Shown here: positions 35,501 to 54,253 of the stretch, in pieces
How positions within the stretch are numbered: position 1 is the stretch's first letter
Layout of the letters: every line of letters starts with the position of its first letter
Assembly (NCBI GenBank): GCA_019695185.1
Contig: JAIBAN010000037.1
Coordinates: forward strand, 1-64,000
Reading direction: 5' to 3'
Length of the DNA: 64,000 bases
Source of the DNA: Blastocatellia bacterium
Lineage (GTDB): Bacteria; Acidobacteriota; Blastocatellia; Chloracidobacteriales; Chloracidobacteriaceae
The notes under the pieces: model-generated
The model's database searches: none
Told to the model about the DNA's origin: nothing
The model's input: only the letters and a program-made list of their open reading frames with translations
Translations under genes and position numbers: made by a program

Positions 35501-38500
35501 GACGGCACTGGTCGTCAAAATGAAAATACCGTTGTTCGTATTGCCGGAAATCACATTGCCAGACCCGGCGGCCTGACCACCGATGGTGGTCATTTGGGCA
35601 TCGTCCACTTCGATTCCGTAAATATTCGGCAGGGCGGCGGTTCCCGATGCGGTGATACCAATATAATTTCCTTGAATCTGGTTTCCCACACTTGTCGGGT
35701 TGACCACATAAATTCCGTATCCGGAATTCCCTGAAATGACATTTCGAGCAGTGGAGGTTGTTCCGCCAATCATATTATTGCTGCCGTCAATGCCTACTCC
35801 ATCCCCACCATTAGGCAAAGCCGTGGCACCTGTTTGCTCGGTCCCAATGTAATTCCCCTGGACGAAATTTCCATCGGAGCCGAGAAAGACCCCGTTCGCC
35901 AAGTTGCCGGATATCACATTCCGCATGCCACTGCCTGAACCACCAATCACATTGCCAGTGGCGTTGGTGGCGGTGGCCACTCCGTGCAGTGTATTTCCGA
36001 TAGCAGTGGTGCCGTTGGCTCCAATTCCGATGAAATTGCCTTCGATGTGATTATTGGTGGTGGGTGAGCCCTGGATCAAAATTCCATGCTGGCCGCTGGC
36101 GCAAATCACATTGCGAGCGCTGGCAGTGGTGCCGCCAATCAGGTTGTTGGATGAGGCCACCAGAATATTGGAATTGGAATTTCCCAAAGGGCTGTTTCCG
36201 GTATTGTCGGTTCCCAACAGATTCCCCTGAATGGTGTTGGTATTCGAGCTGGTTCCCAATGCAATGCCAAACCCCGTATTTCCTGAAATCAAATTGCCGG
36301 CATTGGCCACCGTGCCACCCACCTGGTTATTGCCGGATGCCCCGTCAATGATGATTCCACCTGCCAGGTTTCCCAGCGCGGCTGTTCCCGCCGCATTGGT
36401 GCCAATCAAATTTCCCTGGACTTGATTATTCTGGGCCGAATCTCCGTTGATATGAACACCGGAACCCTGGCCGCCGGCAATCACATTTCCCGCACCAATG
36501 GTCGTGCCGCCAATCGTGCAATTGGTACTGTTGACGATGAGAAGGCTGTCACCCACATTGCCCAAGCTTCCTGTGCCGTTCACGGTCACACCAATATAAT
36601 TGCCCTGAACGTTGATATTGGATGAAGCCCCAATCAGCCTCAGCCCACCCTGCAAGTTGCCTGAAATCACATTCCGGTCGGCGGCAGTCGTGCCCCCAAT
36701 TAAAACGTTTGAACCGCCGTTGATACTGATTCCGAAGTTCTCATTTGCAAGCGCTCCGTTGCCAGTGGAGTCAACCCCGATAAAATTGCTTTTAATAGTT
36801 CCGGAACCTGAAAGCAGTTCAATCCCAGCCTGTATGTTTCCGGAAATCTGATTGCCTTGGCCGGCCCCGGTCCCTCCGACGGTAATGGCCGCCGAGCTTT
36901 GCGCCAAGACACCGGACCCGCCATTGCCCAGAGCCACATTGTTTGTGGCATCAACCCCAATCCGGTTTCCAAACACCTGACCGTTGGCACCCGCCCCGTC
37001 AAAGAAAATCCCATGCCGGGTGTTCCCGCTAATCAGGTTGCCCAGGCCGGTTCCGCCTCCAATCGTCACATTTGAGGCCCCGCTTTCCACTGTGATTCCA
37101 TCAATGTCGTTGGGCAGCGCCACCATACCGGTGATGTCCGTGCCAATGTAGTTTCCTTCTATCAAAAGGCCGCTGGCCGTCGAACCGGAGGTAAAAACTC
37201 CGGAAAGCTGGTTGCCGGAAATAATATTGCGGACTTGAGGAACATTGCCGCCCACTTTGTTAAAGGCCGTGGCTTGGCTGTAAACCCCATGCGCCATATT
37301 TGGCAGGCTGGCGGTTCCTGCCGGGTCCGTTCCAATCAGGTTGCCAAAAACAAAATTGGAAGTTGCCCCGTCAAACAGTCCCACCCCGGACAGGAAATTT
37401 CCCGAAATCAGGTTTCCGGCTCCAGCCACCGCACCCCCAATGACATTGTTTTGCGGACTTCCGTTAAAAATGGAAACTCCATAAAACCCGTTTCCCAGGG
37501 GTTCGTCGGCCAGGGCCGTTGTGCCGATGTAATTTCCCTGGATCAGATTGCTGTTGGTAAGCGGATTGAAAATGCTGACCCCATCCCGGACATTCCCGGA
37601 AATAATGTTCCGGGCTGCCGCAGAGGTTCCACCAATCAGGTTGTTTTGGGTTCCACCAAACAGTTCCACACCAACCGCCGCATTGGGGGCATCAGTATTT
37701 CCTGCGGCCACCGTGCCGATGCGGTTTCCCTGAACCAGTACGCTCTGGGTAAGTGAGCCGGTAATTTCGATTCCGTCATCACCGTTTCCGGAAAGAACGT
37801 TGGTCGAACCAACCACCGTATCTCCGATTTTATTGTTGATGCCAACCGGCGTGCTGCCGGAAATCACCACGACGCCCGAACCCTGATTGGGCAATGGGTT
37901 ATTTCCGGAAATATCCACCCCGATGTAATTTCCAATGACTTTGTTATTGGCTCCAGCAGGGGTGCCATCGTCACTGCCAAAGAAAACCCCATGTGTGAGG
38001 TTGCCGGAAATCAGATTTCTCAGGATAGGAGTGGTGCCTCCGATGGTGTTGGAGGCTGCACCACCAAAAATCAGGATGCCATTTCCGTTGGGTGCTGCCG
38101 CTGTTCCAGCGATATTGGTTCCGAGCAGGTTTCCCTGAATGTTGATGTTGTTTCCCTTGAGGGCAATGGCTGCTCCGTCGCCGGACGAACCCTGCGGGGT
38201 ATTTTGAATGCACAGTCCTGAAATCGTCGAATTGCTGGCATTTACAGCCAGCAGGCCACCAAACCCTGCTGACAGGGCGGAACCGTCAATCACAATGGTC
38301 CCCACTGTGGCATTGATGATGACTGGGTCGTTGATCGGCGGCAACTGCGAGCTGAGTGAAATCGTCCCCGAAATACTGAAGGTGATGTTGTCCATGACCC
38401 CGATGCTTGCATTGGAATCCAGAATGGCTTGTCGCAATGACCCTGGTCCAGCGTCATTGGTGGTCGAGACATCAAGGTTGACCCGTGGTTCGGTTTGAAT

Positions 38501-39910
38501 GAAAGACGGGATGAAAGAGCCCTGGTTCAGCACCACTAAATCCTGTAAAGCATCCGAATTGAGTTGCAGCGGCAGAATTGCCACCGGTTGCTGCTCCGTC
38601 TGGATTGCGGCCAGTCGGGAAACCGCCTTGACCGAGTTCCCTTTGACCTCCGGGTTGGGGCTGTAGATTTCAAACCGCCCCGAATTGCCAAATGCAACCA
38701 CTTCGTCATTCAGGAGGGTGGATGTTTTGGTTTTCACCAGTCTGGTTGGCAGAAAATCAAATCCACCTGCCCTGCTTGCAACCGTCCAGGCCCGTGGGTG
38801 AAAGGATTTGGGTGCCTGCTGGCGCAAGGTTGGATTCCCAACCAGGTGCAGGCGTCCGTCCGTCGTCAAAACCGTGATTTCAGAGAAAAAATCTCCGCTA
38901 AAGTTTCCTGTCGCCAATGAGACGACCTGACCCGGAACGGCGATCTGTTCCATTGCAAGAGAAGGGGCAGTCGCTTGCAACTCTTTGGTGAGAGATAGCT
39001 TGCGGTCCCGGCCATGGACAATCAGCACTGCCGAGCCGGAGCCAACGGCCACATCTCCCCACGGGTCCGGGTCAAACAATCCGAAGCCGAGGTCAGTTAC
39101 CGGAGCCGGTACTTTGACCACTTCCGGAAGACTCCGGGCGGCACCGGTCGGGCTTTCAAAAATCAACAGGCGCGGACCTTTGCCGGTTAAAATGCCCACC
39201 ACGATTTCCGGCAGGCCATCAAAGCGGTTGCACTCTCCCACTGCCAGAGCGGTTAGCTTTCCCCCCAAAAAAATGTTTTCAGGAACTCCAAAATGCCCCT
39301 TTCCATCCCCCGGTAAAAAGCTCAGGGTGGTGGCATTCAGTGAGGTCAAAACGACATCCTGGTGCCCGTCGGCATTGAAATCTCCGGTCCCCACCAGTTC
39401 CGGAACAGTCGGTACCGATATCATTCCGGGTTCAGCAAAAAACGGCCCGTCCACTGAGGTTCCCGCTGCTTTTTTGGCCAATACGGACGGGTGCAATGGA
39501 TTGCGCCCAGCTCCATTCCCCCGATACAGCAGCAACATCCCGGTTTCAGGAGCCATCCCCGCCGTCAGCAGGTCCGGCACCCCATCCTCGTCAAAATCCG
39601 CTGTCGCCAAAGCCAGAGGACGAATGGCACCATTCGATAGGGATTGAACCAATCCGGCAGTTCCGGTCATGTGGGTTGGGAGGGAAGTGCCGGGAGCAAC
39701 ATGCACCCAGGGACCGTTTTCCTCCACTACGCGGGCTGTGACCCGCCCGGCCTGTTGTTCCCGGACCAGCTCCTGCCGGGCGGCAACCTTTTCCATTTTT
39801 CTTATCGCCAAAAAGGTCATGAGCAGCAGCAACAGACTGGAAACCACCCAACGTTTTTTGGCAGATGCGGTGAAATAACCGGGGCGGGAATGCAATCGGG
39901 GATTGAACAT
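29582..39910 (-). CDS. Giant exported FG-GAP/beta-helix/Ig-repeat/dockerin-like protein
   Basis: A 3442-residue exported protein. A hydrophobic segment at about 20-38 (WVVSSLLLLLMTFLAI) serves as signal or anchor. Residues about 80-420 carry FG-GAP/VCBS beta-propeller repeats ('LATADFDEDGVPDLLTAGM', 'GTGDFNADGHQDVVL'). About 485-1830 is a very long right-handed beta-helix of some 20 repeats, each with GNxIGTxxxG, PNgxxGV and NxISGN blocks. A bridging domain (about 1830-1935) leads to about a dozen Ig/cadherin-like repeats (about 1940-3180, PTITPAxPVTxQAGS and SDxETPAGNL blocks). An FN3 domain (about 3183-3270), IPT/TIG (about 3275-3370) and a dockerin-like end with two Asp-rich calcium loops (DVDGDGILTALDL, NGSYGDGIVDAFDV) close the protein. 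It may be a surface polysaccharide-binding or adhesin protein; no catalytic site recognised. Confidence 0.88.
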   Translation of the reverse strand: MFNPRLHSRPGYFTASAKKRWVVSSLLLLLMTFLAIRKMEKVAARQELVREQQAGRVTARVVEENGPWVHVAPGTSLPTHMTGTAGLVQSLSNGAIRPLALATADFDEDGVPDLLTAGMAPETGMLLLYRGNGAGRNPLHPSVLAKKAAGTSVDGPFFAEPGMISVPTVPELVGTGDFNADGHQDVVLTSLNATTLSFLPGDGKGHFGVPENIFLGGKLTALAVGECNRFDGLPEIVVGILTGKGPRLLIFESPTGAARSLPEVVKVPAPVTDLGFGLFDPDPWGDVAVGSGSAVLIVHGRDRKLSLTKELQATAPSLAMEQIAVPGQVVSLATGNFSGDFFSEITVLTTDGRLHLVGNPTLRQQAPKSFHPRAWTVASRAGGFDFLPTRLVKTKTSTLLNDEVVAFGNSGRFEIYSPNPEVKGNSVKAVSRLAAIQTEQQPVAILPLQLNSDALQDLVVLNQGSFIPSFIQTEPRVNLDVSTTNDAGPGSLRQAILDSNASIGVMDNITFSISGTISLSSQLPPINDPVIINATVGTIVIDGSALSAGFGGLLAVNASNSTISGLCIQNTPQGSSGDGAAIALKGNNINIQGNLLGTNIAGTAAAPNGNGILIFGGAASNTIGGTTPILRNLISGNLTHGVFFGSDDGTPAGANNKVIGNYIGVDISGNNPLPNQGSGVVVISGSTPVGINNKIGDTVVGSTNVLSGNGDDGIEITGSLTQSVLVQGNRIGTVAAGNTDAPNAAVGVELFGGTQNNLIGGTSAAARNIISGNVRDGVSIFNPLTNSNLIQGNYIGTTALADEPLGNGFYGVSIFNGSPQNNVIGGAVAGAGNLISGNFLSGVGLFDGATSNFVFGNLIGTDPAGTASLPNMAHGVYSQATAFNKVGGNVPQVRNIISGNQLSGVFTSGSTASGLLIEGNYIGTDITGMVALPNDIDGITVESGASNVTIGGGTGLGNLISGNTRHGIFFDGAGANGQVFGNRIGVDATNNVALGNGGSGVLAQSSAAITVGGTGAGQGNQISGNIQAGIELLSGSGTIKSNFIGVDSTGNGALANENFGISINGGSNVLIGGTTAADRNVISGNLQGGLRLIGASSNINVQGNYIGVTVNGTGSLGNVGDSLLIVNSTNCTIGGTTIGAGNVIAGGQGSGVHINGDSAQNNQVQGNLIGTNAAGTAALGNLAGGIIIDGASGNNQVGGTVANAGNLISGNTGFGIALGTSSNTNTIQGNLLGTDNTGNSPLGNSNSNILVASSNNLIGGTTASARNVICASGQHGILIQGSPTTNNHIEGNFIGIGANGTTAIGNTLHGVATATNATGNVIGGSGSGMRNVISGNLANGVFLGSDGNFVQGNYIGTEQTGATALPNGGDGVGIDGSNNMIGGTTSTARNVISGNSGYGIYVVNPTSVGNQIQGNYIGITASGTAALPNIYGIEVDDAQMTTIGGQAAGSGNVISGNTNNGIFILTTSAVNNPMNTAIQGNFIGTNPAGVSAIPNGDNGIAVGNSAGNQIGGTNAALANVISGNADDGLEIAGNQAQNNIVQGNFIGTNVGGTAPLGNVRSGVFINDAPNNAIGGMIGGSKNVISGNNTGPSGGFAGVAITGAGATGNVVQGNAIGTNATGTTAIPNGEMGVRIGFEAQNNMVGGTSPTERNVISGNLSHGVLLDNHMTPSGNQVQGNFIGTNASGSAALGNGGDGVYVVQSNGNLIGGTVAGSGNLISGNAGNGVRIEFAQSVGNTVSRNQIGTDLAGTGGIPNTGRGVAIKDANNNVVGGINNGNLIAFNGSTGVAIESTATGTVIRSNSIFQNGGLGIDLGANGVTANDSGDADSGPNTLQNFPVLTSVTGGAGTLTVTGNFNSTANTLFVIDFYGNTACDGSGNGEGESFLGTMMVTTDTGGNATINFNQTVPSVPFAVTATATSTGASQNTSEFSTCVPVGAPNTPPTITPAAPVTIQAGSSPTTFPIATVSDVETPAGNLVVTIGSRPTGVNIANIVNTAGAITADISTTCGAVSGPVTLIVTDAGSAMATGMLTINVTPNQPVVLGSYATTTITQGGTMVVSSSAAPTDNGTFSLSVSVSSGFTGTASVNSVTGDVTISNANPPGTYTVTVSSLDNCGAISNATFTLNVNASNTPPTITPAAPVTIQAGSVPATFPIATVSDVETPPGNLIVTAGAPPPGVTIANIVNTGGAITADISTSCAAGSGAVTLTVTDASSAMATGTLTINVAPNQPVTLGTYSATTISQGGTMVVTPSAPPTDNGTFSLAVSVSGSFSGTASVNQTTGAVTISNANPPGTYTVTVDGLDNCLDFSTTSFTLQVLAGNTPPTITPAAPVSVQAGSLPVNFMIATVSDVETPAGNLIVTAQTPPPGISINNIVNTGGTVTADITATCVATGGPVTLTVTDASLGTANATLVINVTANQPAVLGTYSATSVGAGGGTTVNPTLPPTDNGTFSLSASAGTSFTGTISVNSATGIVTITNANPPGNYTVTVTSLDNCGATSSTSFSLQVLAGNTQPTITPAGPITVQQGSPAQTLTIATVSDSETPAGNLLVNVLSVPTGVTLTNLTNSNGTVTGQVSASCFAVSGVAILQVTDGGGLVNTGNLSINVTPNTAPGLGTYPTTTVTAGGSTTVTPSAPPSDNGTITGVTVNAPGFGGTISVAPATGVVSISNANPPGTYTVSVTVSENCNASTTRSFFLQVNAPVNQPPTLGSYPPTTVNEGQSVVVVPTVPPTDPDGSVVGLTASAPGFQGQFVGDPATGRLSISNAQPQGVYTVTVKATDNSGSFVTQTFTLTVVNVPPTVTVSGPINRRQGQPGSLSTFATIRDVGSQANELRVSLVNAAPGLVISGLVNNNGTVSATIEATCSAALGPNIFTIQVSDRQQGVTADIVVNVQSGIPTLGRYTDNFVNEGQTTEVNPSAPPDGLGTNGLIVSVTPNTFAGTVQVAPTGVVTIGKAGPAGTYVVNVSGTGNCGGTVTQSFRLEVVNLAPTVRAGDPVALRQGATLQSALLATVRDAGTPAGNLQVSLRNLPSGISITNLTNVNGEISAQVTVGCSVPANLVSVLLEVSDGQLTASTPILVDVITNQPPTLGTYADLSVTSIRTATIPASAPPRDDETTFNLTVEPPTIPGGIVTIDRASGNVTLAVTDDALLLGQYSFTVQATDSCGQTTRTSFRLIVRLPGPTGLTAQRDQSSQVQLRWADNSDNEAGFKIERRTEGGTFALLTVTAPNVTQFTDQSTEPGVRYTYRVRAFKQAGDSDPSNEATVEAGQVTITQFYPLATAPGKTITIRGTGFAAGTQVFFGGDRRIPAASLSLVNPGMIRAVVPVSDIGTANLNGFLTIRVPGASDITSRSLPTNIGNPADPNGTFSDFVLIGDVDGDGILTALDLTTQLAVALGQIGAAPRQRLAADVAPFNANGSYGDGIVDAFDVTVLRAVLLRQISF

Positions 39911-43251: not shown

Positions 43252-44271
43252 TTAAGAGGCAACCTCGATTTTCCAGGACCGTTTCCCCAACTCGGTGACG
43301 GTAATGTGAACCGCCAGAAACCGCCGGATGACCTCGATATTGGTGGTTGTATGTTCGGACAGCACCGAAGTCACAAAGGAGCCGCCGCCCGCAACCGCCA
43401 GCGGCAGGAGCAACTGGTCAGCCAGGTATTCACCCACCGGTGCTTCGGACCGAACGTACTGTTTGGCTTCCTTGAGGGCTTCTTCGGCCACCAGTTCGGC
43501 CCGTTTTCCTTTTTCGCCGAAGGCGGTAAAGACTTCGGTCAGGTGTTCGCTTTCGACTTCGATGAAAACCACATTTCCCGGACCACGCGACGTGGTCACG
43601 TTTTCCGTTTTGAGTACGGGATTTTTCCATTCCAGTCGCCGCGCAATGAGTGAGAGTTCACGGTCGGCAATATCGGTCGGAAGCATTGCCACCAGTGCCG
43701 TGGCCCGTTGTTCGTGTATGGTGCCCCGTTCGCACAAATCCAGCCGATTGAGCATTCCGGTCGGTTCAATCACGGCTGTGAACTTCCCTCCGCCCACGGG
43801 AAAAAAGCCCGGACGTTCAAGTTCCACCGTGACATTGGCACCCATCCGCCGCAAAAGCGGCAGAAAGGATTTTTCCAAAAACGGAAAGGGCGGAGCTGCC
43901 GGGTTGTGCGTGCCACCTTCCAGGGTCAGTTCCGTTTTTTCGGTGGTCGTCAGCAATGCGGGCAACACCGTCTGCAAAACCAGTGTGGCACTGCCGGCCG
44001 TCCCGATGGCAAACGAATAAGAGCCGCTTTGCATTTTTCCCGGACGAAACACCAGTTCCTTGGAACCAAGCGTGTCACCCGACACTTCGGCCTGCCCGAT
44101 TTCCGTTGCCGCTTTGACTGCCGTCAAATGCTGCCGGAGGAGTCCCGGTTTTTGCCGTCCGGCCCGGATTTTCTCAATTTTGAACGGTTTCCCGGTCATC
44201 ATCGAAAGCGCCAGGGACGAGCGCAAAATCTGCCCGCCGCCTTCGCCAAATGAGCCGTCAATGGTAATCAT
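43252..44271 (-). CDS. rtcA: RNA 3'-terminal phosphate cyclase
   Basis: A 339-residue enzyme, normal length for RtcA. It uses ATP to turn an RNA 3'-phosphate into a 2',3'-cyclic phosphate and works in RNA-end repair. Landmarks: GEGGGQILRSSLALS (residues 7-21), the ELTLEGGTHNPAAPP segment (about 112-126) and the C-terminal ...SEHTTTNIEVIRRFL, whose His is the adenylated residue in characterised RtcA. It is the last clear RNA-repair gene of the minus-strand train, after slipin, with palindromic repeats (44290-44467) between. Expression is likely under RtcR/sigma-54 control from the promoter at 52370, unless internal promoters exist. Confidence 0.95.
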   Translation of the reverse strand: MITIDGSFGEGGGQILRSSLALSMMTGKPFKIEKIRAGRQKPGLLRQHLTAVKAATEIGQAEVSGDTLGSKELVFRPGKMQSGSYSFAIGTAGSATLVLQTVLPALLTTTEKTELTLEGGTHNPAAPPFPFLEKSFLPLLRRMGANVTVELERPGFFPVGGGKFTAVIEPTGMLNRLDLCERGTIHEQRATALVAMLPTDIADRELSLIARRLEWKNPVLKTENVTTSRGPGNVVFIEVESEHLTEVFTAFGEKGKRAELVAEEALKEAKQYVRSEAPVGEYLADQLLLPLAVAGGGSFVTSVLSEHTTTNIEVIRRFLAVHITVTELGKRSWKIEVAS

Positions 44272-44469: not shown

Positions 44470-45288
44470 TTATTCGTTTTCGCTGACGCGCTGGTGTTTG
44501 TCGAAACCGATGTAAATGCGGGCATTCGCCGTGCGGGAAAGTTCGCGCATGGTTTCGAGTTCTTCCAGGCGCATGAGCGCCGGATGTGTGCTGTAGGCAT
44601 TTGCGGCCTGTTCGCGTTCGCGCAGGGCCAAGACTTCCGCTTCGGTCTTGACGCGCTGGGCTTCGGCAAAGGCTTCGGCTTCCATTTGCTGGATTTCGGC
44701 TCTGGTCTGGGCATCAATGCGCTGCACTTCAGCTTTGGTCCGGGCGTCAACCAGTTGCGCCTGACTCATGCGTTCAGCCGCCAGAACGCGGTTCATGATT
44801 TCCTGCAAATTGCCGGGGAAAATCAAGTCCTTCACGTCGGCGCGGTAAATTGCCACGCCGTAGGAGGCAGCGGTTTGCTTGACATCGCGCAGAATGTCTT
44901 CGTTCAGCCGGTTGCGGTTGGTCAGAATGTCTTCGAGCGTCATCGAAGCCAGTGACCGGCGCGCCGCCAGTTGAATGTCGCTGTAAAGGCGGTCTTCGTA
45001 GCTGGTCACTTCATGGAGCGCGGCTTTCGGGTCCGTCACACGGAACTGGACGACGATGCTCACACGGAGCGCCACCTTGTCTGCCGTCAGAATTTCCTGT
45101 CCCTTGATGGTCAAATCGCGTTCGCGGACATCCACCAGAATGACTTCCACTTTCGGGCGACGCAAAAAGCCCCACTGAATTGGCTTCGGAATCTGATAGC
45201 GTCCGGCCTCGAGGACTTTGGTCAGCACGCCGTCCTGATACCAGAGGCCGCGATGAGTGTCTTTGATAATCAATTCATGCTTGTTCAT
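44470..45288 (-). CDS. Slipin-family SPFH/band-7 protein
   Basis: A 272-residue protein. The chosen ATG (complement 45286-45288) starts with MNKHELIIKD. The SPFH/band-7 domain spans about 20-190 (DGVLTKVLEAGRYQIP, ILTADKVALRVSIVVQFRV, SMTLEDILTNR, GVAIYRADVKDLIFPGNLQEIMNRVLAAE), followed by a coiled coil of Ala/Glu/Gln heptads (about 185-245). There is no clear membrane segment at the N terminus, unlike stomatins. Slipins of this type are found in rtcBA operons with RtcR in other bacteria, so its place between rtcB and rtcA fits. Its exact role in RNA repair is not known. Confidence 0.9.
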   Translation of the reverse strand: MNKHELIIKDTHRGLWYQDGVLTKVLEAGRYQIPKPIQWGFLRRPKVEVILVDVRERDLTIKGQEILTADKVALRVSIVVQFRVTDPKAALHEVTSYEDRLYSDIQLAARRSLASMTLEDILTNRNRLNEDILRDVKQTAASYGVAIYRADVKDLIFPGNLQEIMNRVLAAERMSQAQLVDARTKAEVQRIDAQTRAEIQQMEAEAFAEAQRVKTEAEVLALREREQAANAYSTHPALMRLEELETMRELSRTANARIYIGFDKHQRVSENE

Positions 45289-45333
45289 AACGTTACTTCT
45301 TTCAACCAAGGCAGTTTTCCACCGTTTGAGCAA

Positions 45334-45364
45334 CTCAGTCCTCAGTCCTCAGTCCTCAGTCCTG
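45334..45364. repeat. CAGTCCT heptamer run
   Basis: Four tandem CAGTCCT heptamers upstream of the slipin gene. They are the reverse complement of the AGGACTG runs elsewhere in the window. Confidence 0.75.
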
Positions 45365-45530: not shown

Positions 45531-45986
45531 TTAACCTACCACCGCTCCGGCAAGTGCTGTCACATAATCACTTCGACGGAACCGAAAAGGACCGACTCCT
45601 TCGTAAACAGTGGCTTCCTGGCTGCGTGAACCATCCTCCAGGTAAAACGAATGCCAGATAATGGCCTCCTGCTCTTTTTCAAGATGGACTGTCACTGCAC
45701 CACAGCCAAGGTCGGCACATTCGGCACAAACATAGAGCACATAACGGTTGGAGCGCAGTTCAGACGGCTTTCTGAGCAAAAGTTCCTGGGCATACCGACG
45801 GTTCACTTTGGGCAGCAGCCAACCCAGGCAGCCAGCCCGGCTTGTGGTTCCCAGCAGGTTCCGCAAAGACCGGCCATCCACTACAAATTCCAGAAAATCA
45901 AAGGAAGGTCTGGTTTTGTTTCCAGGCATGGTCTGCCATTTCAATTCGAGTTGAGAAAAATCTTCGTTCACGGCCAAACCACGCAT
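45531..45986 (-). CDS. Hypothetical Cys-containing protein in the RNA-repair train
   Basis: A 151-residue cytosolic protein of unknown function. It begins with charged, beta-type segments (FDFLEFVVDGRSLRNLLG) and contains a Cys cluster in VLYVCAECADLGCGAVTV (about 93-110), which could bind zinc. Near the C terminus is a GPFRFRRSDYV block that looks conserved-type. It lies between rtcB and slipin on the same strand, with a hairpin (45991-46042) before it, so it is likely co-transcribed. The ATG at 45986 has no strong Shine-Dalgarno, so the start is uncertain. Confidence 0.65.
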   Translation of the reverse strand: MRGLAVNEDFSQLELKWQTMPGNKTRPSFDFLEFVVDGRSLRNLLGTTSRAGCLGWLLPKVNRRYAQELLLRKPSELRSNRYVLYVCAECADLGCGAVTVHLEKEQEAIIWHSFYLEDGSRSQEATVYEGVGPFRFRRSDYVTALAGAVVG

Positions 45987-46073: not shown

Positions 46074-47498
46074 TTACCCCTTCACGCACACGACCTGCCG
46101 CAAGGTATGCACAATCTCCACGAGGTCCGACTGCGCGTTCATGACCGCATCAATGTCCTTGTAAGCGGCTGGAGTTTCGTCAATTACGTCCTTGTCTTTC
46201 CGGCATTCAATTCCAGCGGTGGCTCGTTCGTGGTCTTCGACCGTGAAACGCCGTTTGGCTTCGCCGCGAGACATCTTGCGGCCCGCGCCGTGCGAGCAGG
46301 AATTAAAGCTCTCCGGATTGCCCTTGCCGCGCACAATGAAGGACCGCGCTCCCATGCTGCCGGGAATGATGCCCATATCGCCTTCACCCGCACGAACTGC
46401 GCCTTTGCGGGTGACAAACACGTGCTCGCCGTAATGGAGTTCACGCTGGACGTAGTTGTGGTGGCAATTCACCACCTCAATCGAAGCCGAGAACGGAGGC
46501 AGTTCACCGGTTTCCGCCACAGACTGCTTGACGGCTTCCATCATCAGTTCGCGGTTCGTGCGGGCGAAGTTTTGCGCCCACGAAACGGCTTCAAAGTAGT
46601 CGTTGAAATGCTCGGTTCCTTCGTTGAAATAGGCCAAATCCTTATCCGGCAGATTTCCCAGAACCCGCTGCATGTCCTTTTTCGCCAGCTCAATGAAATA
46701 GGTGCCGATGCGGTTTCCAACGCCGCGCGAACCGCTATGGAGCATAAACCACACGTCGTCCGATTCATCGAGGCAGACTTCAATAAAGTGGTTGCCGGTT
46801 CCCAGCGTGCCGAGATGGTTTAAATCATTGCCCCGCCGCAATTTCGGGTGTTTATCCAAAATCCGGTCGTAGCCCGGCTGGAGTGTTTCCCAAACCTCCA
46901 TTTGGCGCGCTGGAATATTGGCCCAGGCTCCCCGGTCGTTGCGCCCGCCGTTGTCCGTCCGTCCGTGTGGCACTGCTTTTTCAATTGCCGTGCGGATGTT
47001 TTTCAGGTTGTCGGGCAGGTCTGTTGCCTTCAACGTGGTGCGAACGGCGGCCATTCCGCAACCAATATCCACACCGACAGCCGCCGGAATGATGGCTCCC
47101 TTGGTTGGAATCACGCTCCCGACCGTCGCGCCGATGCCCCAATGGACATCCGGCATGGCGGCAACCCACTTGTGGATGAACGGCAATTGAGCCACGTTGA
47201 GTAACTGTTTGCGGGCCGGGTCTTCGATGGCCACGCCTTTGACCCACGCTTTGATGGGCACACCATGTTCCGGCGTAATCAGCTCGTAGCGCGATTTTCC
47301 GGACTCAACTTCTTCCGTTGCAACGGTTACTGTCGCTTTTTCGGCCCGATTCGGCTTTTTCGGCGCAGGTGCAATCAGTTCTTCTTGGTTATCAAGTTCC
47401 AATTCGTCAGCCAGTAAATCAGCCATTTCCGCAGGGGAAAGGCGATGGTTGTCGGTAATCGTTCCAAAATGTTTTTTGTTCTTTGACGTGTTTTTCAT
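46074..47498 (-). CDS. rtcB: RNA-splicing ligase RtcB with N-terminal extension
   Basis: A 474-residue GTP- and Mn2+-dependent ligase that joins RNA 3'-phosphate or 2',3'-cyclic phosphate ends to 5'-OH ends. The core starts near residue 71 (YELITPEHGVPIKAW) and keeps all landmarks: PDVHWGIGATVGSV, GVDIGCGM with the metal-binding Cys, GNHFIEV, HSGSRGVGN, and the C-terminal NSCSHGAGRKMSR with the guanylated His. The first about 70 residues are an extra Lys/Glu/Pro-rich tail that E. coli-type RtcB (about 408 residues) lacks. The start is the ATG complementary to 47496-47498; a longer open frame to 47732 is rejected because it reads through a Y RNA. It lies 63 bases downstream of that RNA. Confidence 0.95.
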   Translation of the reverse strand: MKNTSKNKKHFGTITDNHRLSPAEMADLLADELELDNQEELIAPAPKKPNRAEKATVTVATEEVESGKSRYELITPEHGVPIKAWVKGVAIEDPARKQLLNVAQLPFIHKWVAAMPDVHWGIGATVGSVIPTKGAIIPAAVGVDIGCGMAAVRTTLKATDLPDNLKNIRTAIEKAVPHGRTDNGGRNDRGAWANIPARQMEVWETLQPGYDRILDKHPKLRRGNDLNHLGTLGTGNHFIEVCLDESDDVWFMLHSGSRGVGNRIGTYFIELAKKDMQRVLGNLPDKDLAYFNEGTEHFNDYFEAVSWAQNFARTNRELMMEAVKQSVAETGELPPFSASIEVVNCHHNYVQRELHYGEHVFVTRKGAVRAGEGDMGIIPGSMGARSFIVRGKGNPESFNSCSHGAGRKMSRGEAKRRFTVEDHERATAGIECRKDKDVIDETPAAYKDIDAVMNAQSDLVEIVHTLRQVVCVKG

Positions 47499-47561: not shown

Positions 47562-47715
47562 AGAGCGACGACAAGGGGGCGAAGAAACGCCAGTGCTTGC
47601 GCACGTCTGTTGCTCTACTGCCTGAGCTACTCTCCCACAAATGAAACGGGAGAGGCTGGACTTGCACCAGCGACCCACAGATTGAAATGTAGTTCCTTCT
47701 GGCATTCGTCGCTCT
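47562..47715 (-). ncRNA. Y RNA 1 (YrlA-like) with permuted tRNA-like module
   Basis: A 154-nt RNA read 5' to 3' from 47715. Basal stem: 10 bp, AGAGCGACGA with TCGTCGCTCT. Then an internal loop (5' ATGCCA; 3' GCCCCCTTG), a second helix GAAGGAAC with GTTTCTTC (one G-U) at 47692-47699 and 47581-47588, and an unpaired CTACAT. The module follows in permuted tRNA order: CTGT half-stem, T-arm GCTGG-TGCAAGT-CCAGC (47655-47671), acceptor CTCTCCC, cap of 11 bases, acceptor GGGAGAG, TA, D-arm GCTC-AGGCAGTA-GAGC (47612-47627), ACAG half-stem. A GNRA hairpin GTGC-GCAA-GCAC (47593-47604) sits before the second helix closes. This is the pattern of Ro60-bound bacterial Y RNAs. A T7 run lies about 15 bases past the 3' end. 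Confidence 0.85.
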
Positions 47716-47777: not shown

Positions 47778-47933
47778 AGAGCGACGACAAGGAGGCGAAG
47801 AAACAACAGCGCTTGCGCGCTCCTGCTGCTCTACTGACTGAGCTACACGCCTCATATTATTGGGAGGCGCGGCTGGAATTGCACCAGCGACACGCAGATT
47901 TACAATGTAGTTCCTTCAGGCATTCGTCGCTCT
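47778..47933 (-). ncRNA. Y RNA 2 (YrlA-like) with permuted tRNA-like module
   Basis: A 156-nt RNA read from 47933, in tandem with Y RNA 1 and clearly its duplicate. The same 10-bp basal stem and same second helix (GAAGGAAC at 47910-47917 with GTTTCTTC at 47797-47804) are kept. Module: CTGC half-stem, T-arm GCTGG-TGCAATT-CCAGC (47872-47888), acceptor of about 7-8 bp (CGCGCCTC with GAGGCGTG), cap of about 10 bases, TA, D-arm GCTC-AGTCAGTA-GAGC (47828-47843), GCAG half-stem, then hairpin AGCGC-GCAA-GCGCT. Acceptor and anticodon-like stems differ from Y RNA 1 by paired changes that keep the pairing, which supports a selected RNA structure. It starts 13 bases after the stop of the gene at 47947. 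Confidence 0.85.
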
Positions 47934-47946
47934 TTCAATCTATCAG

Positions 47947-48429
47947 CTATTTGGCCGTATCAAAATCAACCAGCACCAGGAAATCTTCAGCGGGTGTCCG
48001 GTGCAGAACGCCGAGCAGTCGCATGTGGTGAGAAACCACGCGCACGGCCAGCAACTGGTGTATTTCCGTTTCAAGCGCTTGAGCGATTTCCGCCGCACCA
48101 CTTCCGGGTTTATCCAAAAATCGGTCGAAGATTTTCCGCATCATTTCATTTTCCGGCTTAAACGAACGGTCCAGTAAAAAGACGCCATCCGCACCGCCAA
48201 GGCTTCGGGATTGTTGTTCATCAAAACCGTAGGCCGCATTTTTCAAAGCCGTCAGAAAAGCCGGGGACTTCCAGACACGTCCTTTTGTGGCTGCTTTCCG
48301 AAATCGTTCCGTCAAAGCCAGTTGCAGATTGCGTTCGTTCCGACAAAAGGTGTGCGCCACTACAAACGGCACGCCCAAAAGTTTGGGGCTGATGGCTTCA
48401 ATCTTTTCTTTGACTTCTTCCAACTTCAC
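47947..48429 (-). CDS. Hypothetical protein coupled to the HNH gene
   Basis: A 160-residue helical protein of unknown function. I place the start at the GTG of a GTGA junction with the HNH gene's TGA (48426-48429), a typical coupled start; the frame also has an ATG at 48492 inside the HNH gene. Features: a Lys/Glu-rich first helix, 'GVPFVVAHTFCRNERNLQLALTERFRKAA', a 'LKNAAYGFDEQQSRSLGGADGVFLLDR' segment and a long C-terminal helix pair. No signal or membrane part and no known family. It lies between HNH and the two tandem Y RNAs, so it is a candidate partner of the RNA-repair system. Confidence 0.6.
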   Translation of the reverse strand: MKLEEVKEKIEAISPKLLGVPFVVAHTFCRNERNLQLALTERFRKAATKGRVWKSPAFLTALKNAAYGFDEQQSRSLGGADGVFLLDRSFKPENEMMRKIFDRFLDKPGSGAAEIAQALETEIHQLLAVRVVSHHMRLLGVLHRTPAEDFLVLVDFDTAK

Positions 48430-48791
48430 TTGACACCTTTTGCATTCGATTTCCGGACCCGCAGATGCATATCCGGGCGTTTGCTGACCCATTCGGTGAA
48501 TTTCCTGACTTCCGGATTGGCCAGCAGCAATTCCACCGTGTAGTAGCTTTCTGCCAGTTCCTTTTCGGTAAACAGCGCATGCACATTCTTATGGCACGGT
48601 CTGCACACGGAGATGGTCCGGTGGAGCACCGCCGTATCGAAATCCTTCTTCCGCTTATAGACCTTGTGCCGCGCCCTGGGAATCAAATGATGTTCCGTGG
48701 TTTCTTTGACTTCGCGGCGACACAGTTCGCATTGTTGCATGTTCGGCATACGGAAAATGTGCTTCAACTCAAGACATTTTTCAATGCTCAT
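48426..48791 (-). CDS. Small HNH-type nuclease-like protein
   Basis: A 121-residue protein. A zinc-binding pair CELC (about 21-24) and a second pair CRPC (about 63-66) flank the motif EHHLIPRARHK (about 33-43), and CHKNVHALF closes the ββα-metal site. This is the order of small HNH endonucleases. The His of the catalytic motif is present. The C-terminal half is a helical tail (ELAESYYTVELLLANPEVRKF). The ATG at 48791 lacks a clear Shine-Dalgarno; starts at 48749 or 48740 are possible. Its placement inside the Ro60-Y RNA-rtcB train suggests it cuts or modifies nucleic acid in this pathway; whether RNA or DNA is unknown. Confidence 0.75.
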   Translation of the reverse strand: MSIEKCLELKHIFRMPNMQQCELCRREVKETTEHHLIPRARHKVYKRKKDFDTAVLHRTISVCRPCHKNVHALFTEKELAESYYTVELLLANPEVRKFTEWVSKRPDMHLRVRKSNAKGVK

Positions 48792-48828
48792 ACATTTTGT
48801 TTCGGCTGAGAAACAAACCTGCCGAAAC

Positions 48829-48867
48829 TCAGTCCTCAGTCCTCAGTCCTCAGTCCTCAATCCTGAA
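48829..48867. repeat. CAGTCCT heptamer run
   Basis: About five tandem CAGTCCT heptamers just upstream of the HNH gene. Confidence 0.75.
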
Positions 48868-48911
48868 ATTGTCCCCATCCCCACCCTCACCACACGACGG
48901 ACCAGTGCGTT

Positions 48912-49008
48912 GGTAATAACAATTCACTTTGATTGGTACGCTTGTCACAGTGCTGGGCCGAATTTGTAAAATGGGATTCGAACCCATACTGCCGCCCCTG
49001 GCATTACC
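48912..49008 (-). ncRNA. Element with a tRNA T-arm, possible fifth Y-type RNA
   Basis: On the minus strand, ATGGG-TTCGAAT-CCCAT (48971-48987) is a perfect consensus tRNA T-arm. It is enclosed by GGTAAT/ATTACC (49003-49008 with 48912-48917). The 5' side reads GGTA-ATGCC and the 3' side ATTG-T..., which matches the ATGCC and TTGT of the Y RNAs. I could not find a clear D-arm or a good second helix, and CTACAT is absent. It may be a decayed Y RNA, a divergent one, or a tRNA fragment. A hairpin CGAGAA-TCTGC-TTCTCG lies just outside (49013-49029). Confidence 0.4.
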
Positions 49009-49188
49009 GAAACGAGAATCTGCTTCTCGGGGTGGTTGGTTTGCACTCGCTTCCGTTTGTGTGTGGTTACCGACAATTCATTTGCCAATTTCCATTTGCG
49101 ATTTGCGATTTGTCAATTCCGTAAATTACCGGCCCAAATGACAAGTGGCTTTCAATGACAAATCGCAAATCGCAAATCGCAAATGTAT
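49009..49188. repeat. CGAGAA hairpin and inverted GATTTGC heptamer pair
   Basis: Besides the short hairpin, GATTTGC-type units at 49094-49112 are faced by AAATCGC units at 49158-49185 across about 45 bases, in the intergenic region before the DIP1984 gene. No gene seen. Confidence 0.65.
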
Positions 49189-49647
49189 TTATTCCTTCAA
49201 ATCCGTCAGCCAGTTGAGTGCCTGAATACGGGAATCCAGTTCGCGGTATTCCTGAGCCAGCGCGTCTGCCGTTTTTTGAATTTCGGCCACATTGACCGCA
49301 CTCACAAACTTGACTTCGGAGCGCATGTACACGTTGTGCATGACGGCTGCCGCTGCGGCCAGCTCGCGGTAAACACCCTGCCGCTTCAACAATCCGTCAC
49401 GGCGGGCAATCGCATCGGCCAGGGTTTCGTTGGCCTCGAATTCGGTCAAACTGTTGGTCTGGTTGATTTTCCGGACCAATGCAACCACTCGTGTGCCAAT
49501 TTCCTCGACTTCGGCCAGCAACTGACTGGGATTTTCCGCTGGAGCGTCGCCCTGCTGGACCTTGGCGTTTTGCAGGATGCGCTGCTTGATTTGTTCAAAT
49601 CGCTTTTGCGCGTCGGCGCGCTGGATGAGTGCTTCTGCGAGTTTCAT
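49189..49647 (-). CDS. DIP1984-family protein
   Basis: A 152-residue helical protein. The start MKLAEALIQRADAQKRFEQIKQRI, the 'LVRKINQTNSL' block (about 58-68), 'LADAIARRDGLLKRQGVYREL' and the 'EVKFVSAVNV' strand are typical of the DIP1984 family (sometimes called septicolysin). Function is unknown in general. Its ATG overlaps the TGA of the upstream gene (ATGA), so the two are translated together. Being in this operon links it to RNA repair; I have no direct evidence of a reaction. The long coiled regions fit an oligomeric or scaffold protein. Confidence 0.8.
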   Translation of the reverse strand: MKLAEALIQRADAQKRFEQIKQRILQNAKVQQGDAPAENPSQLLAEVEEIGTRVVALVRKINQTNSLTEFEANETLADAIARRDGLLKRQGVYRELAAAAAVMHNVYMRSEVKFVSAVNVAEIQKTADALAQEYRELDSRIQALNWLTDLKE

Positions 49648-50276
49648 AGTTCACCTTTCGCTTCCTCAAGTGTCTCTGCCGGGATGGTCACTTCGCACGC
49701 ATAGTCGAGCGGAAGCGCCTGCGGCGTATCGTAAACTTCCCAATATTTTTTCCAGTATTCCCACCACGCTGCGTGCTTTGCTGAAATTTCGTTCAAAAGA
49801 ACCGGGCCATGCACGTTTAGAATGTCCATCCGGTCAGCCATCACGCAAACGCCCATTTCACCAGCCCAAAAAGCCAACAGAGCCGGACTTTGCTGCACAT
49901 CAATCTGGGCCGGGTTCAGTCCGAAAACCACATCGAACCGTTCGGCTGCTTCCAGAATTTCCCCCAGGCGGTCAGGTTCAAAGGTAAATTCACCAAATGA
50001 AACCGACGGTGACTGCTCAAATTCGTCGTTTTTGAGCCTGTCCGCCCAGTCTTCGGGTGTTTCATCCGCGTTCCTGGTCAGGAAACAGACACTTTTCAAA
50101 CCCGAAAAGCGCAGGGCCAGGATTCCACTGGGAGGTTCTGCCGGGTTGCGGGGTTCATTCCACAATTGGACACCGCTAAACTCGACCTGGAAACAGTCGG
50201 GAAAGTGTTCCGTCCACCAGTTCCAGCACCCTACGTCGGTGATTGCTTCAGTCAGGATTGCAAGTGCTTCGTTCAT
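49644..50276 (-). CDS. Hypothetical protein coupled to DIP1984
   Basis: A 210-residue acidic protein of unknown family. The ATG complementary to 50274-50276 is preferred; a frame from 50321 would run into the Y RNA. It is rich in Trp, Glu and Asp (VGCWNWWTEHFPDCF near the start; AAWWEYWKKYWEVYD near residue 175), with a mixed alpha/beta middle and no membrane segment. It overlaps DIP1984 by four bases. It starts 35 bases after the 3' end of Y RNA 3, so it is the first protein gene after TROVE and the two Y RNAs. A role with damaged RNA is inferred only from place. Confidence 0.65.
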   Translation of the reverse strand: MNEALAILTEAITDVGCWNWWTEHFPDCFQVEFSGVQLWNEPRNPAEPPSGILALRFSGLKSVCFLTRNADETPEDWADRLKNDEFEQSPSVSFGEFTFEPDRLGEILEAAERFDVVFGLNPAQIDVQQSPALLAFWAGEMGVCVMADRMDILNVHGPVLLNEISAKHAAWWEYWKKYWEVYDTPQALPLDYACEVTIPAETLEEAKGEL

Positions 50277-50311
50277 AGTGTTCCCGTTCGATTCAAACCC
50301 GTTTTTTGATA

Positions 50312-50443
50312 GCGACGACAAGTGAGTGAAGAAACATTTTTACCGTGCGCTCTGCCGGATTGAGCCACTTCCCGAACTTCGGGAAGCCCGGATTTGAACC
50401 GGGAATCTCACGGCCCCATGTAGTTCCTTCTGGCATTCGTCGC
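50312..50443 (-). ncRNA. Y RNA 3 (YrlA-like), with the clearest tRNA-like module
   Basis: A 132-nt RNA read from 50443. Basal stem GCGACGA/TCGTCGC, internal loop ATGCCA, second helix GAAGGAAC (50423-50430) with GTTTCTTC (50328-50335), then CTACAT. The module is CCGTG half-stem, AGATT, T-arm CCCGG-TTCAAAT-CCGGG (50387-50403, canonical T-loop), 7-bp acceptor CTTCCCG/CGGGAAG closed by five bases, TG, D-arm GCTC-AATCCGGCA-GAGC (50349-50365), CACGG half-stem. Thus a tRNA is opened at the anticodon loop and closed at the acceptor end. No GNRA hairpin is inserted here. It lies upstream of the hypothetical/DIP1984 pair and downstream of Y RNA 4. Confidence 0.88.
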
Positions 50444-50450
50444 CTTTCTT

Positions 50451-50569
50451 GAGGACTGAGGACTGAGGACTGAGGACTGAGTGAAGAAAAAGCCGCTTGG
50501 TTGACGGTTTCATCATCCAGCTCTGGAAAAAACTCAGTCCTCAGTCCTCAGTCCTCATCACTTTTAGAA
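50451..50569. repeat. Inverted pair of AGGACTG heptamers between Y RNAs 3 and 4
   Basis: AGGACTG runs (50452-50481) face CAGTCCT runs (50534-50557), about 50 bases apart. They bound the spacer between the two RNAs and can form a long hairpin. Confidence 0.8.
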
Positions 50570-50636: not shown

Positions 50637-50756
50637 AGGACTGAGGACTGAGGACTGAGGACTGAGGACTGAGTTTTTCCCAAACTGAAGTTAAAATTGT
50701 CATCCCAAATACAGTTTTTCTTAACTCAGTCCTCAGTCCTCAGTCCTCAGTCCTTT
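50637..50756. repeat. Inverted pair of AGGACTG heptamers after the TROVE gene
   Basis: AGGACTG runs (50637-50673) face CAGTCCT runs (50726-50754), about 50 bases apart, between TROVE and Y RNA 4. Together with 50451-50569 they frame Y RNA 4 on both sides. Confidence 0.8.
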
Positions 50757-52313
50757 TCAGATGGTTCCTGCCTCGATGACACCGACCCAGTGGTCTGCAC
50801 CAAGGGTTCCGGCGGCAAACTTGGCAATCACATCAAACACCTGGTCGGAGAATCCTCCGACGTTAAGAATGTCGTCGCGTTCGTAAGCCTGCGTCGTTCC
50901 GTACGGCTGGATGTCAATACAGACCATCCGGGCCTGTGGGTTGCGCTGCTTGAACACGTTCCATTCCTGCATCGTTGCCGTTCCCCGTCCGCGTCCGTTT
51001 GCATCCACCCACGATTCGTTGTCCGAAACGTAGATGATGAGGTCGCCCGCAGCCTTCCGTTCGTTCAGCTTGCGGAGCGGGGCGCTACAGTTGGTTCCAC
51101 CGCCGCCGATGGAGGCCAGCTTCTGGGCGTTGGTCATCACGGTGTCAAACGGGTTGAGCGTGAGGTTGACCACACTGTGTTCAAACGGAAGCACCTGGGC
51201 GCTCGTGTTCTTGCGCACCACGGCTGCCGCCACCAGCGCCGCCACGTCAATACACCGGACCGTCGAGGTCGCTCCCGGACGGTATCCCGTCGCCGGACAC
51301 GACATCGAACCCGAAACGTCCGGCAGCACATAAACCTGGCCGCTCAATTCCGGCACGTTGGCCAGAGCGATTTCCATCGCTTCCTGCAAGGCCAGCCGGA
51401 CGACCTGCGGCACATCGTTGCCAGCCATCAGAAACGCCGTCATCAACTGGTACGGAAACACCCGCGCCTTGGCAATTTCCTGCGGATTGCGCAGGCGGGT
51501 CGCAATCAGTTCCGGAAGACCCGCTTCGTTGAACACACCATGCCGCGCAAAGGTGTTGAGGTTCATGCGGGTCATCTGCCACGAGGCATTGCGGGCGATT
51601 TCAGTCCATTCCGCCGTTCCCAGGTTCAGCGCCGTCAGCATCTGGAACGGAACATTCGGGATTTCCACCCGATTTCCGGCCTTGAACGCTTCGTATTGCT
51701 GCACCAACTGCGGTAACGCTGCGGCGTTATGGTCGCGTCCGATGAAGTAGCCGAACAACGCTTCGCGGCTGGCTTCCTTTGGCTTCGGATGAACCATCTT
51801 GATGATGTCCGCAAACGACGGGCTCTGGCCCACGGAATCGCGGAAAATCATGTCGTCGTTGCGGGTTTCAAACCACTGCCGCACCAGCCGCTTCGGAGCG
51901 GTTCCCAGCGACTTGCGGCCCACCTGTCCCGACCGAATGATTTGGACAAAGTTGCGGAGCATCTTTCCGTTATCAATCACCCGAGGGAAAATAGCGGCCA
52001 GCAGGTCACGGTCCTTGACAGCGAGCACCGCGCACAGCAACGCAGGCATGTCCTTCATAAAGCCCTGCTTGCGGGTATAGATGGCGAGCTTCGCAATAAA
52101 TTCCGGTTCAATCTGGCGGGCGAGGTCCAAAACCACCGCCAACTGGTCCTGTGCCGTTGCGTAGAAGGTCGAGTTCAGACAACCGGTCATCGCGTATTGC
52201 GCCAGCTTGTGCTTCGGTGAAAATTCGTAGGCCGGAGCGCCAGCCTGATTCAACGTGTTCGGAGCCTGGATTTGCTGGCCAATCAGGGACTGGAATAAAT
52301 TCTTGTTCGCCAT
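50757..52313 (-). CDS. rsr: TROVE-domain protein (Ro60/Rsr orthologue)
   Basis: A 518-residue ring-shaped RNA-binding protein, close to the length of vertebrate Ro60. Residues about 1-350 are the helical TROVE domain (start NLFQSLIGQQIQAPNTLNQAGAPA split by helices; 'MPALLCAVLAVKDRDLLAAIFPRVIDNGKMLRNFVQIIRSG' region near 100-140). The C-terminal part is a von Willebrand A domain with an intact MIDAS start, VLPDVSGSMS (about 330-340), and DNESW near 430. Ro60 proteins bind the ends of misfolded RNAs in the central hole and Y RNAs on the outside. It is the first gene of the minus-strand train, with AAGGAG 14 bases before the ATG and a sigma-54 promoter about 57 bases upstream, divergent from rtcR. 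Confidence 0.95.
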   Translation of the reverse strand: MANKNLFQSLIGQQIQAPNTLNQAGAPAYEFSPKHKLAQYAMTGCLNSTFYATAQDQLAVVLDLARQIEPEFIAKLAIYTRKQGFMKDMPALLCAVLAVKDRDLLAAIFPRVIDNGKMLRNFVQIIRSGQVGRKSLGTAPKRLVRQWFETRNDDMIFRDSVGQSPSFADIIKMVHPKPKEASREALFGYFIGRDHNAAALPQLVQQYEAFKAGNRVEIPNVPFQMLTALNLGTAEWTEIARNASWQMTRMNLNTFARHGVFNEAGLPELIATRLRNPQEIAKARVFPYQLMTAFLMAGNDVPQVVRLALQEAMEIALANVPELSGQVYVLPDVSGSMSCPATGYRPGATSTVRCIDVAALVAAAVVRKNTSAQVLPFEHSVVNLTLNPFDTVMTNAQKLASIGGGGTNCSAPLRKLNERKAAGDLIIYVSDNESWVDANGRGRGTATMQEWNVFKQRNPQARMVCIDIQPYGTTQAYERDDILNVGGFSDQVFDVIAKFAAGTLGADHWVGVIEAGTI

Positions 52314-52369: not shown

Positions 52370-52385
52370 TGCATCCTGCGTGCCA
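52370..52385 (-). promoter_or_regulatory. Sigma-54 (-24/-12) promoter of the RNA-repair train
   Basis: On the minus strand TGGCACG-CAGG-ATGCA matches the consensus TGGCACR-N4-TTGCW at nearly every position, with the invariant GG and GC exactly ten bases apart. The expected start of transcription is near 52359, giving a leader of about 45 bases before the TROVE ATG. The divergent gene encodes RtcR, a sigma-54 activator of rtc operons. Confidence 0.88.
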
Positions 52386-52651: not shown

Positions 52652-54253
52652 ATGAATCAAAAAAAACTGGTTGTGATTGGATTTCTGGGAGCCACGCTGG
52701 ACGCCGGCAAGGGGCCGGGCCGCTGGGAAAAATGGCGTCCGTCGGTGGCGTTGTGCCAGCACGACAACCTGCTGGTGGACCGGTTCGAACTGCTTTATCA
52801 GGAAAAGTTTACCGAGTTGGGGCAGGTGGTACTGGAAGACATCGCCACGGTTTCACCCGAAACCCAGGTTGAATTGAAGTTGGTGAATTTCCAGGACCCG
52901 TGGGATTTTGAAGAGGTTTATGCGGTGCTGTTTGAGTGGGTCCGGGGCTACGAGTTTGACGTTGACCACGAGGAATATCTGATTCACATCACGACCGGCA
53001 CCCACGTGGCTCAGATTTGTCTTTTTCTGCTCACGGAATCGCACCATTTTCCCGGAAAGCTGCTGCAAACCGCTCCACCTAAACGGTATCGGGGTGACGA
53101 CCCCGGCACCTTCACCATCATTGACCTGGATTTGTCGAAATATGGGCGGATTGCTTCACGGTTTGCCCAGGAGCAACAGGAAAGTCTCACGTTTTTGAAA
53201 TCGGGCATTGAAACCCGCGACCCGGCGTTCAACAAACTGATTGAACAGATTGAAAAAGTGGCGATTGCCTCGAAAGCGCCCATGCTCCTGATGGGGCCGA
53301 CCGGAGCCGGAAAATCCCGGCTGGCCAAGCGGATTTATGAACTCAAACGAGCCCGTCATGTGCTGGAAGGCCGCTTTGTCGAGGTGAACTGCGCCACTTT
53401 GCGCGGAGATACGGCCATGTCCACCTTGTTTGGTCATGTCAAAGGGGCGTTTACCGGAGCCGTCAACAATCGTCCGGGACTCCTCCGGCAGGCGAATCAC
53501 GGGCTGCTGTTTTTGGATGAAATCGGTGAACTCGGCCTGGATGAACAAGCCATGCTGCTGCGGGCGCTGGAGGATAAGACCTTTCTGCCGATGGGGGCCG
53601 ACCACGAAACGGACAGCGATTTTCAGTTGATTGCCGGAACCAACCGGGATTTGCACCGGAGTGTGGCGGAAGGCAAGTTCCGCGAGGATTTGCTGGCCCG
53701 TATCAATTTATGGACCTTTCACCTGCCGGGGCTGAAAGACCGCCGGGCCGATATTGAACCGAACATTGCCTATGAACTGGACGAATTTGCCCGCCGCAAC
53801 GGTTCGCAGATTGTTTTTACCAACGAAGCCCGCCGCCAGTTTCTGAAATTCGCTTTGTCGGCGGAGGCCGTCTGGAGCGGCAATTTTCGGGATTTGAACG
53901 CGGCTGTCACCCGCATGGCGACCCTGGCCGAGGGAGGGCGGGTGACTCCGGAAGATGTGGCCGATGAAATCAAACGGCTGACCCGCAGTTGGCAGGGAAG
54001 CGGGGAACCGGTTCAGCGTGGTGGCCTGGAGCAGGTGCTGGAACCGGAACAACTGGCCGCCCTCGACCGGTTTGACCGGGTGCAACTGGCGGATGTGGTA
54101 GCGGTCTGCCGGACTGCCGCCACGCTTTCCGAAGCCGGGCGGCTCCTGTTTTCCACTTCGCGCGAACGCAAGAAAAACACCAACGATGCCGACCGGCTGC
54201 GGAAATATCTGGCGCGGTTTGGGCTTTCATGGAATGCCCTGAAAGGCATCTAA
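52652..54253 (+). CDS. rtcR: RtcR, sigma-54 activator of the RNA-repair operon
   Basis: A 533-residue regulator, the same length as E. coli RtcR. The N-terminal about 180 residues are the RtcR/CARF sensor domain (VVIGFLGATLDAG start, HITTGTHVAQICLFLL near 130), which is thought to bind RNA ends and release the AAA+ domain. Walker A is GPTGAGKSRLAKR (about 215-227), the sigma-54 contact loop is GAFTGA (about 268-273), and Walker B is LFLDEIGEL (about 288-296). An arginine-finger region and a C-terminal helix-turn-helix (LADVVAVCRTAATLSEAGRLLF) complete it. Divergent from the TROVE gene, it should activate the -24/-12 promoter at 52370. Confidence 0.95.
   Translation: MNQKKLVVIGFLGATLDAGKGPGRWEKWRPSVALCQHDNLLVDRFELLYQEKFTELGQVVLEDIATVSPETQVELKLVNFQDPWDFEEVYAVLFEWVRGYEFDVDHEEYLIHITTGTHVAQICLFLLTESHHFPGKLLQTAPPKRYRGDDPGTFTIIDLDLSKYGRIASRFAQEQQESLTFLKSGIETRDPAFNKLIEQIEKVAIASKAPMLLMGPTGAGKSRLAKRIYELKRARHVLEGRFVEVNCATLRGDTAMSTLFGHVKGAFTGAVNNRPGLLRQANHGLLFLDEIGELGLDEQAMLLRALEDKTFLPMGADHETDSDFQLIAGTNRDLHRSVAEGKFREDLLARINLWTFHLPGLKDRRADIEPNIAYELDEFARRNGSQIVFTNEARRQFLKFALSAEAVWSGNFRDLNAAVTRMATLAEGGRVTPEDVADEIKRLTRSWQGSGEPVQRGGLEQVLEPEQLAALDRFDRVQLADVVAVCRTAATLSEAGRLLFSTSRERKKNTNDADRLRKYLARFGLSWNALKGI

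Follow-up and report, generated by a model that had tools for sequence, protein, structure and literature searches.

The best-described relatives of the locus analyzed here come from two separate lines of work. One is the RtcR-controlled rsr–Y RNA–rtcBA operon of Salmonella, in which a divergent rtcR gene accompanies rsr, tRNA-like Y RNAs, rtcB, and rtcA under sigma54-type control. This operon is induced by mitomycin C together with tRNA cleavage, the sensor domain of RtcR binds tRNA fragments, and the authors raised possible DNA-repair roles for RtcB, Rsr, and the Y RNAs (PMC7790460). The other is HlpB (YisB) of Bacillus subtilis, the namesake of NCBIfam family NF058586, a stand-alone HNH-like protein of about 100 amino acids whose gene sits among repair enzymes in an operon. 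HlpB binds double- and single-stranded DNA, cleavage was not detected, and its gene is dispensable only when addA or addAB has been deleted (PMC3765158).

Two looser parallels connect HNH proteins with RNA ligation. HNH domains are joined to the Rnl2 RNA ligases of jumbo phages (PMC7824862), although this is a fusion with an unrelated ligase type found in phages, and its HNH domain is at most a possible member of the HlpB group. In Anabaena PCC 7120, loss of TrcR raises the expression of two HNH genes (all8564 and alr0856) along with rtcB and a slipin gene (PMC10272220, Table 1), but these genes are unlinked and answer to another regulator. Their HNH products may or may not belong to the present family, and the regulon is a lead only. 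No description of an HNH gene in rsr/rtcB operons was found in the literature searched, a 2016 NAR review of RNA-repair neighborhoods (gkw722) lying outside that search.

The window, meaning the whole 64,000-nucleotide stretch of DNA that was analyzed, holds such an operon (Table 1). As in the RtcR-type RNA-repair operons, rtcR, a sigma54 site, rtcB, and rtcA are at one locus together with rsr and Y RNAs. The minus-strand genes run from 52313 to 43252 in the order rsr, a gene for a 225-amino-acid protein, a DIP1984/DUF6847 family gene, the HNH gene, its overlapping partner gene, rtcB, a gene for a 151-amino-acid protein, a slipin-like gene, and rtcA, with rtcR divergent from rsr. Compared with the Salmonella operon, the window adds the slipin, HNH, and DIP1984-family genes and three unknown genes, the partner among them, and its Y RNAs are scattered among the genes. 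The end of the sigma54-type promoter, TGGCACGCAGGATGCA, is separated from rsr by 57 bases. The most similar operon in a relative belongs to another genus of the same family (genome G003) and reads rtcR, rsr, two Y RNAs, HNH, one Y RNA, rtcB, slipin, rtcA, without the partner, 225-amino-acid, and 151-amino-acid genes. It also has a similar sigma54-type site, TGGCACGCCCTGTGCA, upstream of rsr, so that RtcR and the site are retained in both rsr operons that contain the HNH gene.

Table 1. Features of the RNA-repair locus in the window
Feature	Coordinates	Strand	Basis
RtcR, sigma54 activator with RtcR sensor domain	52652..54253	+	Pfam RtcR 7.7e-83, Sigma54_activat 4.8e-50
Sigma54-type promoter TGGCACGCAGGATGCA, upstream of rsr	52370..52385	-	One mismatch versus TGGCAC-N5-TTGCW
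Rsr (Ro60/TROVE protein)	50757..52313	-	Pfam TROVE and vWA_Ro60 above cut-off
Y RNA, upstream of HNH	50312..50443	-	Outer stem motif, permuted tRNA-like module, fold z -3.4
Unknown 225-aa protein, operon cargo	49644..50321	-	ORF listing, Pfam search
DIP1984/DUF6847 family protein, operon cargo	49189..49647	-	Pfam and NCBIfam searches
Possible decayed Y RNA, doubtful, directly 5' of HNH	48905..49012	-	T-arm-like GGGTTCGAATCCC, GGTAAT/ATTACC ends, fold z -0.7
HNH-type protein, HlpB-like, 121 aa from first ATG	48426..48791	-	NF058586 match, AlphaFold2 model
Partner gene, 160 aa, orphan family	47947..48429	-	GTG start overlapping HNH stop
Y RNA, downstream of partner, outer Ro-binding-type stem and permuted tRNA-like module	47781..47930	-	Fold z -2.9
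Y RNA, second downstream of partner	47565..47712	-	Motif and fold z -2.5
RtcB RNA ligase	46074..47498	-	Pfam RtcB 3.4e-134
Unknown 151-aa protein	45531..45986	-	ORF listing; Pfam, NCBIfam, and PADLOC searches
Slipin-like SPFH/Band 7 protein	44470..45333	-	Pfam Band_7 3.1e-30
RtcA RNA 3'-phosphate cyclase	43252..44271	-	Pfam and NCBIfam searches
7-base unit arrays	45334-45363, 48828-48864, 50450-50481, 50533-50557, 50637-50673, 50725-50754		

The three good Y RNAs lie on the same strand as the genes, and each has the outer stem GCGACGAATGCC...TTGTCGTCGC around an inner T-arm, acceptor-like stem, and D-arm in permuted tRNA order. Neither ARAGORN nor Rfam at the gathering threshold called an RNA in the window; the assignment comes from the stem motif and the permuted tRNA-like module, together with the copies found in G003. 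The initial annotation placed the HNH and partner genes between two groups of Y RNAs, which is right, yet the upstream group amounts to one certain copy and the decayed candidate, against two copies downstream.

Several features of the locus are recorded here in their own right. The start of RtcB was set at MKNTSKNKK by alignment with G003, and the listed reading frame extends into a Y RNA. Ahead of the RtcB domain is an N-terminal extension of ~95 amino acids with many charged residues (47210-47498), also present in G003. A 7-base unit (CTCAGTC / GGACTGA) recurs in short arrays between operon genes and Y RNAs. Across six rsr loci of the class (L107, L110, L112, L113, L118, L122), the number of Y RNA motifs downstream of rsr varies, and so do the small genes that separate rsr from the next conserved gene. 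The DIP1984/DUF6847 gene is a second recurring cargo of such loci: it comes after rsr and Y RNAs in the window and also in G415 (L110 4515-4973), with 58% identity between the two. Elsewhere in the window (29582-39910) is a 3442-amino-acid protein in which numerous GNLISGN/GNYIGT-type repeats, by eye resembling a beta-helix, precede a series of repeated Ig-like segments.

The HNH protein has 121 amino acids from its first ATG, although translation may actually begin at Met15 or Met18. Among NCBIfam families, only HlpB gives a weighty match (NF058586, E 5.5e-21); the window protein scores 74.8 bits and its relatives in the phylum 57.7-69, below the equivalog cut-off of 130 bits, while a Clostridium family member (L050) reaches 140 bits. 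The Pfam HNH score, 16.8 bits, is also below cut-off. The window protein does have the CxxC, HH, CxxCH, H core of the broad HlpB-like family, sharing the CxxC...HHLIP...CxxCHxxxH arrangement with HlpB family members. C21, C24, H35, C63, C66, H67, and H71 are invariant across 70 sequences and H34 is present in 69, a set that fits a zinc-bound HNH core. It differs from HlpB in a longer basic loop, seen around residues 39-50 in the clade described below, and in its neighborhood, where rsr, Y RNAs, and rtcB stand in place of the addAB/sbcDC genes that neighbor HlpB; in Halobacillus (L053), a family member is directly 3' of an AddA-like gene.

The AlphaFold2 model is good (pLDDT 84). It was checked for the beta-beta-alpha metal fold, and its top three matches among solved structures are HNH nucleases, the best being SciA (Z 5.2) and Gme HNH 4h9d (Z 4.0), although Z scores of only 4.0-5.2 are weak alone. 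No solved structure related in sequence to the HNH family was found. An HNH fold is likely. The canonical middle Asn would precede the second CxxC by five residues, N68 of Gmet_0936 being the example (PMC3765158), and it is missing at that spacing; the window protein has Arg there (position 58), and most of the family has Arg, Ala, or Glu. A substitute residue may sit in the inserted loop. The initial description as an HNH nuclease is not supported: the four zinc cysteines and H35, H67, and H71 are invariant, but the middle Asn is missing from its usual spacing, and no DNA cleavage was detected for the relative HlpB (PMC3765158).

The stop codon of the HNH gene (TGA) and the GTG start of the partner share the sequence GTGA. 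Both reading frames are real and look coding from the identities and dN/dS values given below, and the gene overlap within an RNA-repair operon stands as first annotated. A listed partner start at 48492 is too long and was rejected from the alignment of two homologues of exactly 160 amino acids, which align from the GTG with 61% (G001) and 57% (G358) identity and a dN/dS of about 0.10. The partner has no Pfam, NCBIfam, or PADLOC family above cut-off and no match among solved-structure sequences, plasmids, or viral contigs; its single-sequence fold (pLDDT 39) is unusable for function. It is present in 3 of the 162 genomes of the class and beside the HNH gene only in the window genome (G000). 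Its neighbors in G358 are a cyclophilin-type gene on one side and, on the other, a gene that has AIR-synthase domains and looks HypE-like by eye; in G001 (L089 139-1263) it adjoins a gene of the SUKH (SMI1/KNR4) family, whose members often act as immunity proteins. All other HNH carriers in the class (G003, G014, G025, G033) lack it. The idea of a functionally coupled, conserved pair was therefore abandoned, since the G003 operon does without the partner and the partner is found elsewhere without HNH. The partner is an independent, rare cargo gene that the operon does not require.

The HNH gene occurs in 5 of the 162 class genomes, the window genome and the four named above, and the five proteins form one clade (support 100/98) against 65 other sequences. 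Four of the five are beside an rtcB. In the window and in G003, the gene is inside rsr–rtcB–slipin–rtcA operons and between Y RNAs, with 64% identity and a dN/dS of about 0.24. In G014 and G025, it is directly upstream of rtcB, through an ATGA overlap in the former and across a 22-nt gap in the latter, and this rtcB is of a different subtype, ~31% identical to the window RtcB. G033 carries the gene away from rtcB. With one or two rtcB genes per 7-8 Mb genome, the chance of at least four of five lying within 2 kb of rtcB is 3e-12 if the cases are independent and 3e-6 counting three lineages. The HNH gene in an RNA-repair operon is thus no accident of one genome, and it appears in two operon types. 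Separately, several rtcB genes of the class, in both subtypes, have a long in-frame insertion, possibly an intein (L087 7900-9930, L119 3938-6121, L123 6013-8202).

Among the loci scanned outside this clade, the association is not seen. None of 65 HNH-family loci across phyla is close to rtcB within the flanking DNA examined, which was partly short, and these include L018, apparently the G033 locus. The same is true of three further carriers in the phylum (G112, G460, G503), of the seven plasmid records viewed, and of five loci on viral contigs. The initial annotation took occurrence mostly far from RNA-repair genes as what would count against it; this describes the broad family and not the closest clade. 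The broad family is not an RNA-repair family, and one clade of it came to lie beside rtcB, arriving either twice or once with a later change of rtcB type. Of the 39 class genomes that have rsr, 37 lack the gene, as do about 26 of the 28 that have the second rtcB subtype; RNA repair therefore does not require it. It is an occasional accessory of RtcB modules.

Tentatively, and with perhaps slightly less than an even chance of being right, we favor an HlpB-like HNH accessory of RtcB modules whose role, when damage occurs, would be to bind or process broken nucleic acid. The sequence data themselves establish the gene and its operon, the association of its clade with two types of rtcB, kinship with HlpB, and a likely HNH fold. 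The gene product would be a zinc-bound, HNH-fold nucleic-acid-binding protein that in this bacterial class has come to accompany some RtcB repair modules as an occasional accessory. It would be made together with Rsr, the Y RNAs, RtcB, and RtcA once RtcR detects cleaved RNA ends, a condition brought on by DNA damage in Salmonella, cotranscription here being inferred. It would most likely bind, and perhaps trim or nick, broken or branched nucleic acid, as proposed for HlpB on DNA-repair intermediates; this substrate and any catalysis are likewise inferred. A protein of the HlpB kind fits the operon as a DNA-side helper because the Salmonella operon is mitomycin C-induced and DNA-repair roles have been raised for it (PMC7790460). 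Against this reading are the match below the HlpB cut-off, the lack of addAB context, the G033 gene away from rtcB, and the many rsr and second-subtype rtcB genomes without the gene, and the proximity to RtcB may equally mean an RNA substrate.

That last point leads to the main rival, in itself a doubtful possibility, where the HNH protein acts directly on RNA, cutting or trimming damaged tRNA or the Y RNA–mRNA transcript and passing the ends to RtcB and RtcA. The tight coupling to rtcB in G014 and G025, the place between Y RNAs in two genera, and the basic loop all point this way, as does the precedent of HNH domains fused to Rnl2, although the authors of that work suggest DNA as the HNH target (PMC7824862). 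On the other side, the two characterized HNH relatives considered here, HlpB and Gme HNH, bind DNA, and the canonical middle Asn is missing from its customary position. The G014 and G025 stretches examined contain no Y RNA motif, which makes Y RNA unlikely as a general substrate of the HNH protein. Cutting of tRNA or Y RNA, suggested from the outset, is possible and gained no support from this analysis. The specific form in which an RNA-directed HNH-fold enzyme prepares broken tRNA or Y RNA ends as the processing partner of the RtcB ligase seems distinctly improbable.

It is unlikely that the gene is a mere passenger in an rsr–rtcB interval that holds changing cargo. The genes neighboring rsr do vary widely among class genomes, the HNH gene is in only 2 of the 39 with rsr, and three other cargo genes are missing from the G003 operon. 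However, the HNH gene keeps the same place in two genera with the identity and dN/dS given above, and it recurs next to another kind of rtcB in a sister group, which would be unexpected for random cargo in two such unlike settings. An effector or defense role, in which the HNH protein damages phage or host nucleic acid, the partner serves as regulator or antidote, and the operon repairs the damage, is very improbable despite the overlapping genes and the SUKH-family neighbor in G001, as no credible PADLOC match was found for HNH, partner, or other cargo, no known defense gene is among the annotated operon proteins, the partner cannot be an obligate antidote when four genomes keep HNH without it, and HlpB, the relative named above, promotes growth and not killing (PMC3765158).

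Under the preferred reading of an HlpB-like accessory, a single operon would serve both RNA sealing and recovery from DNA damage, with the HNH protein as the DNA-side helper. The finding bears on what bacterial RtcB operons act on and on how DNA damage connects with RNA repair. A protein resembling HlpB, found repeatedly beside rtcB, ties a protein of the DNA-repair type to RNA sealing, and it provides a concrete gene with which this link can be tested.
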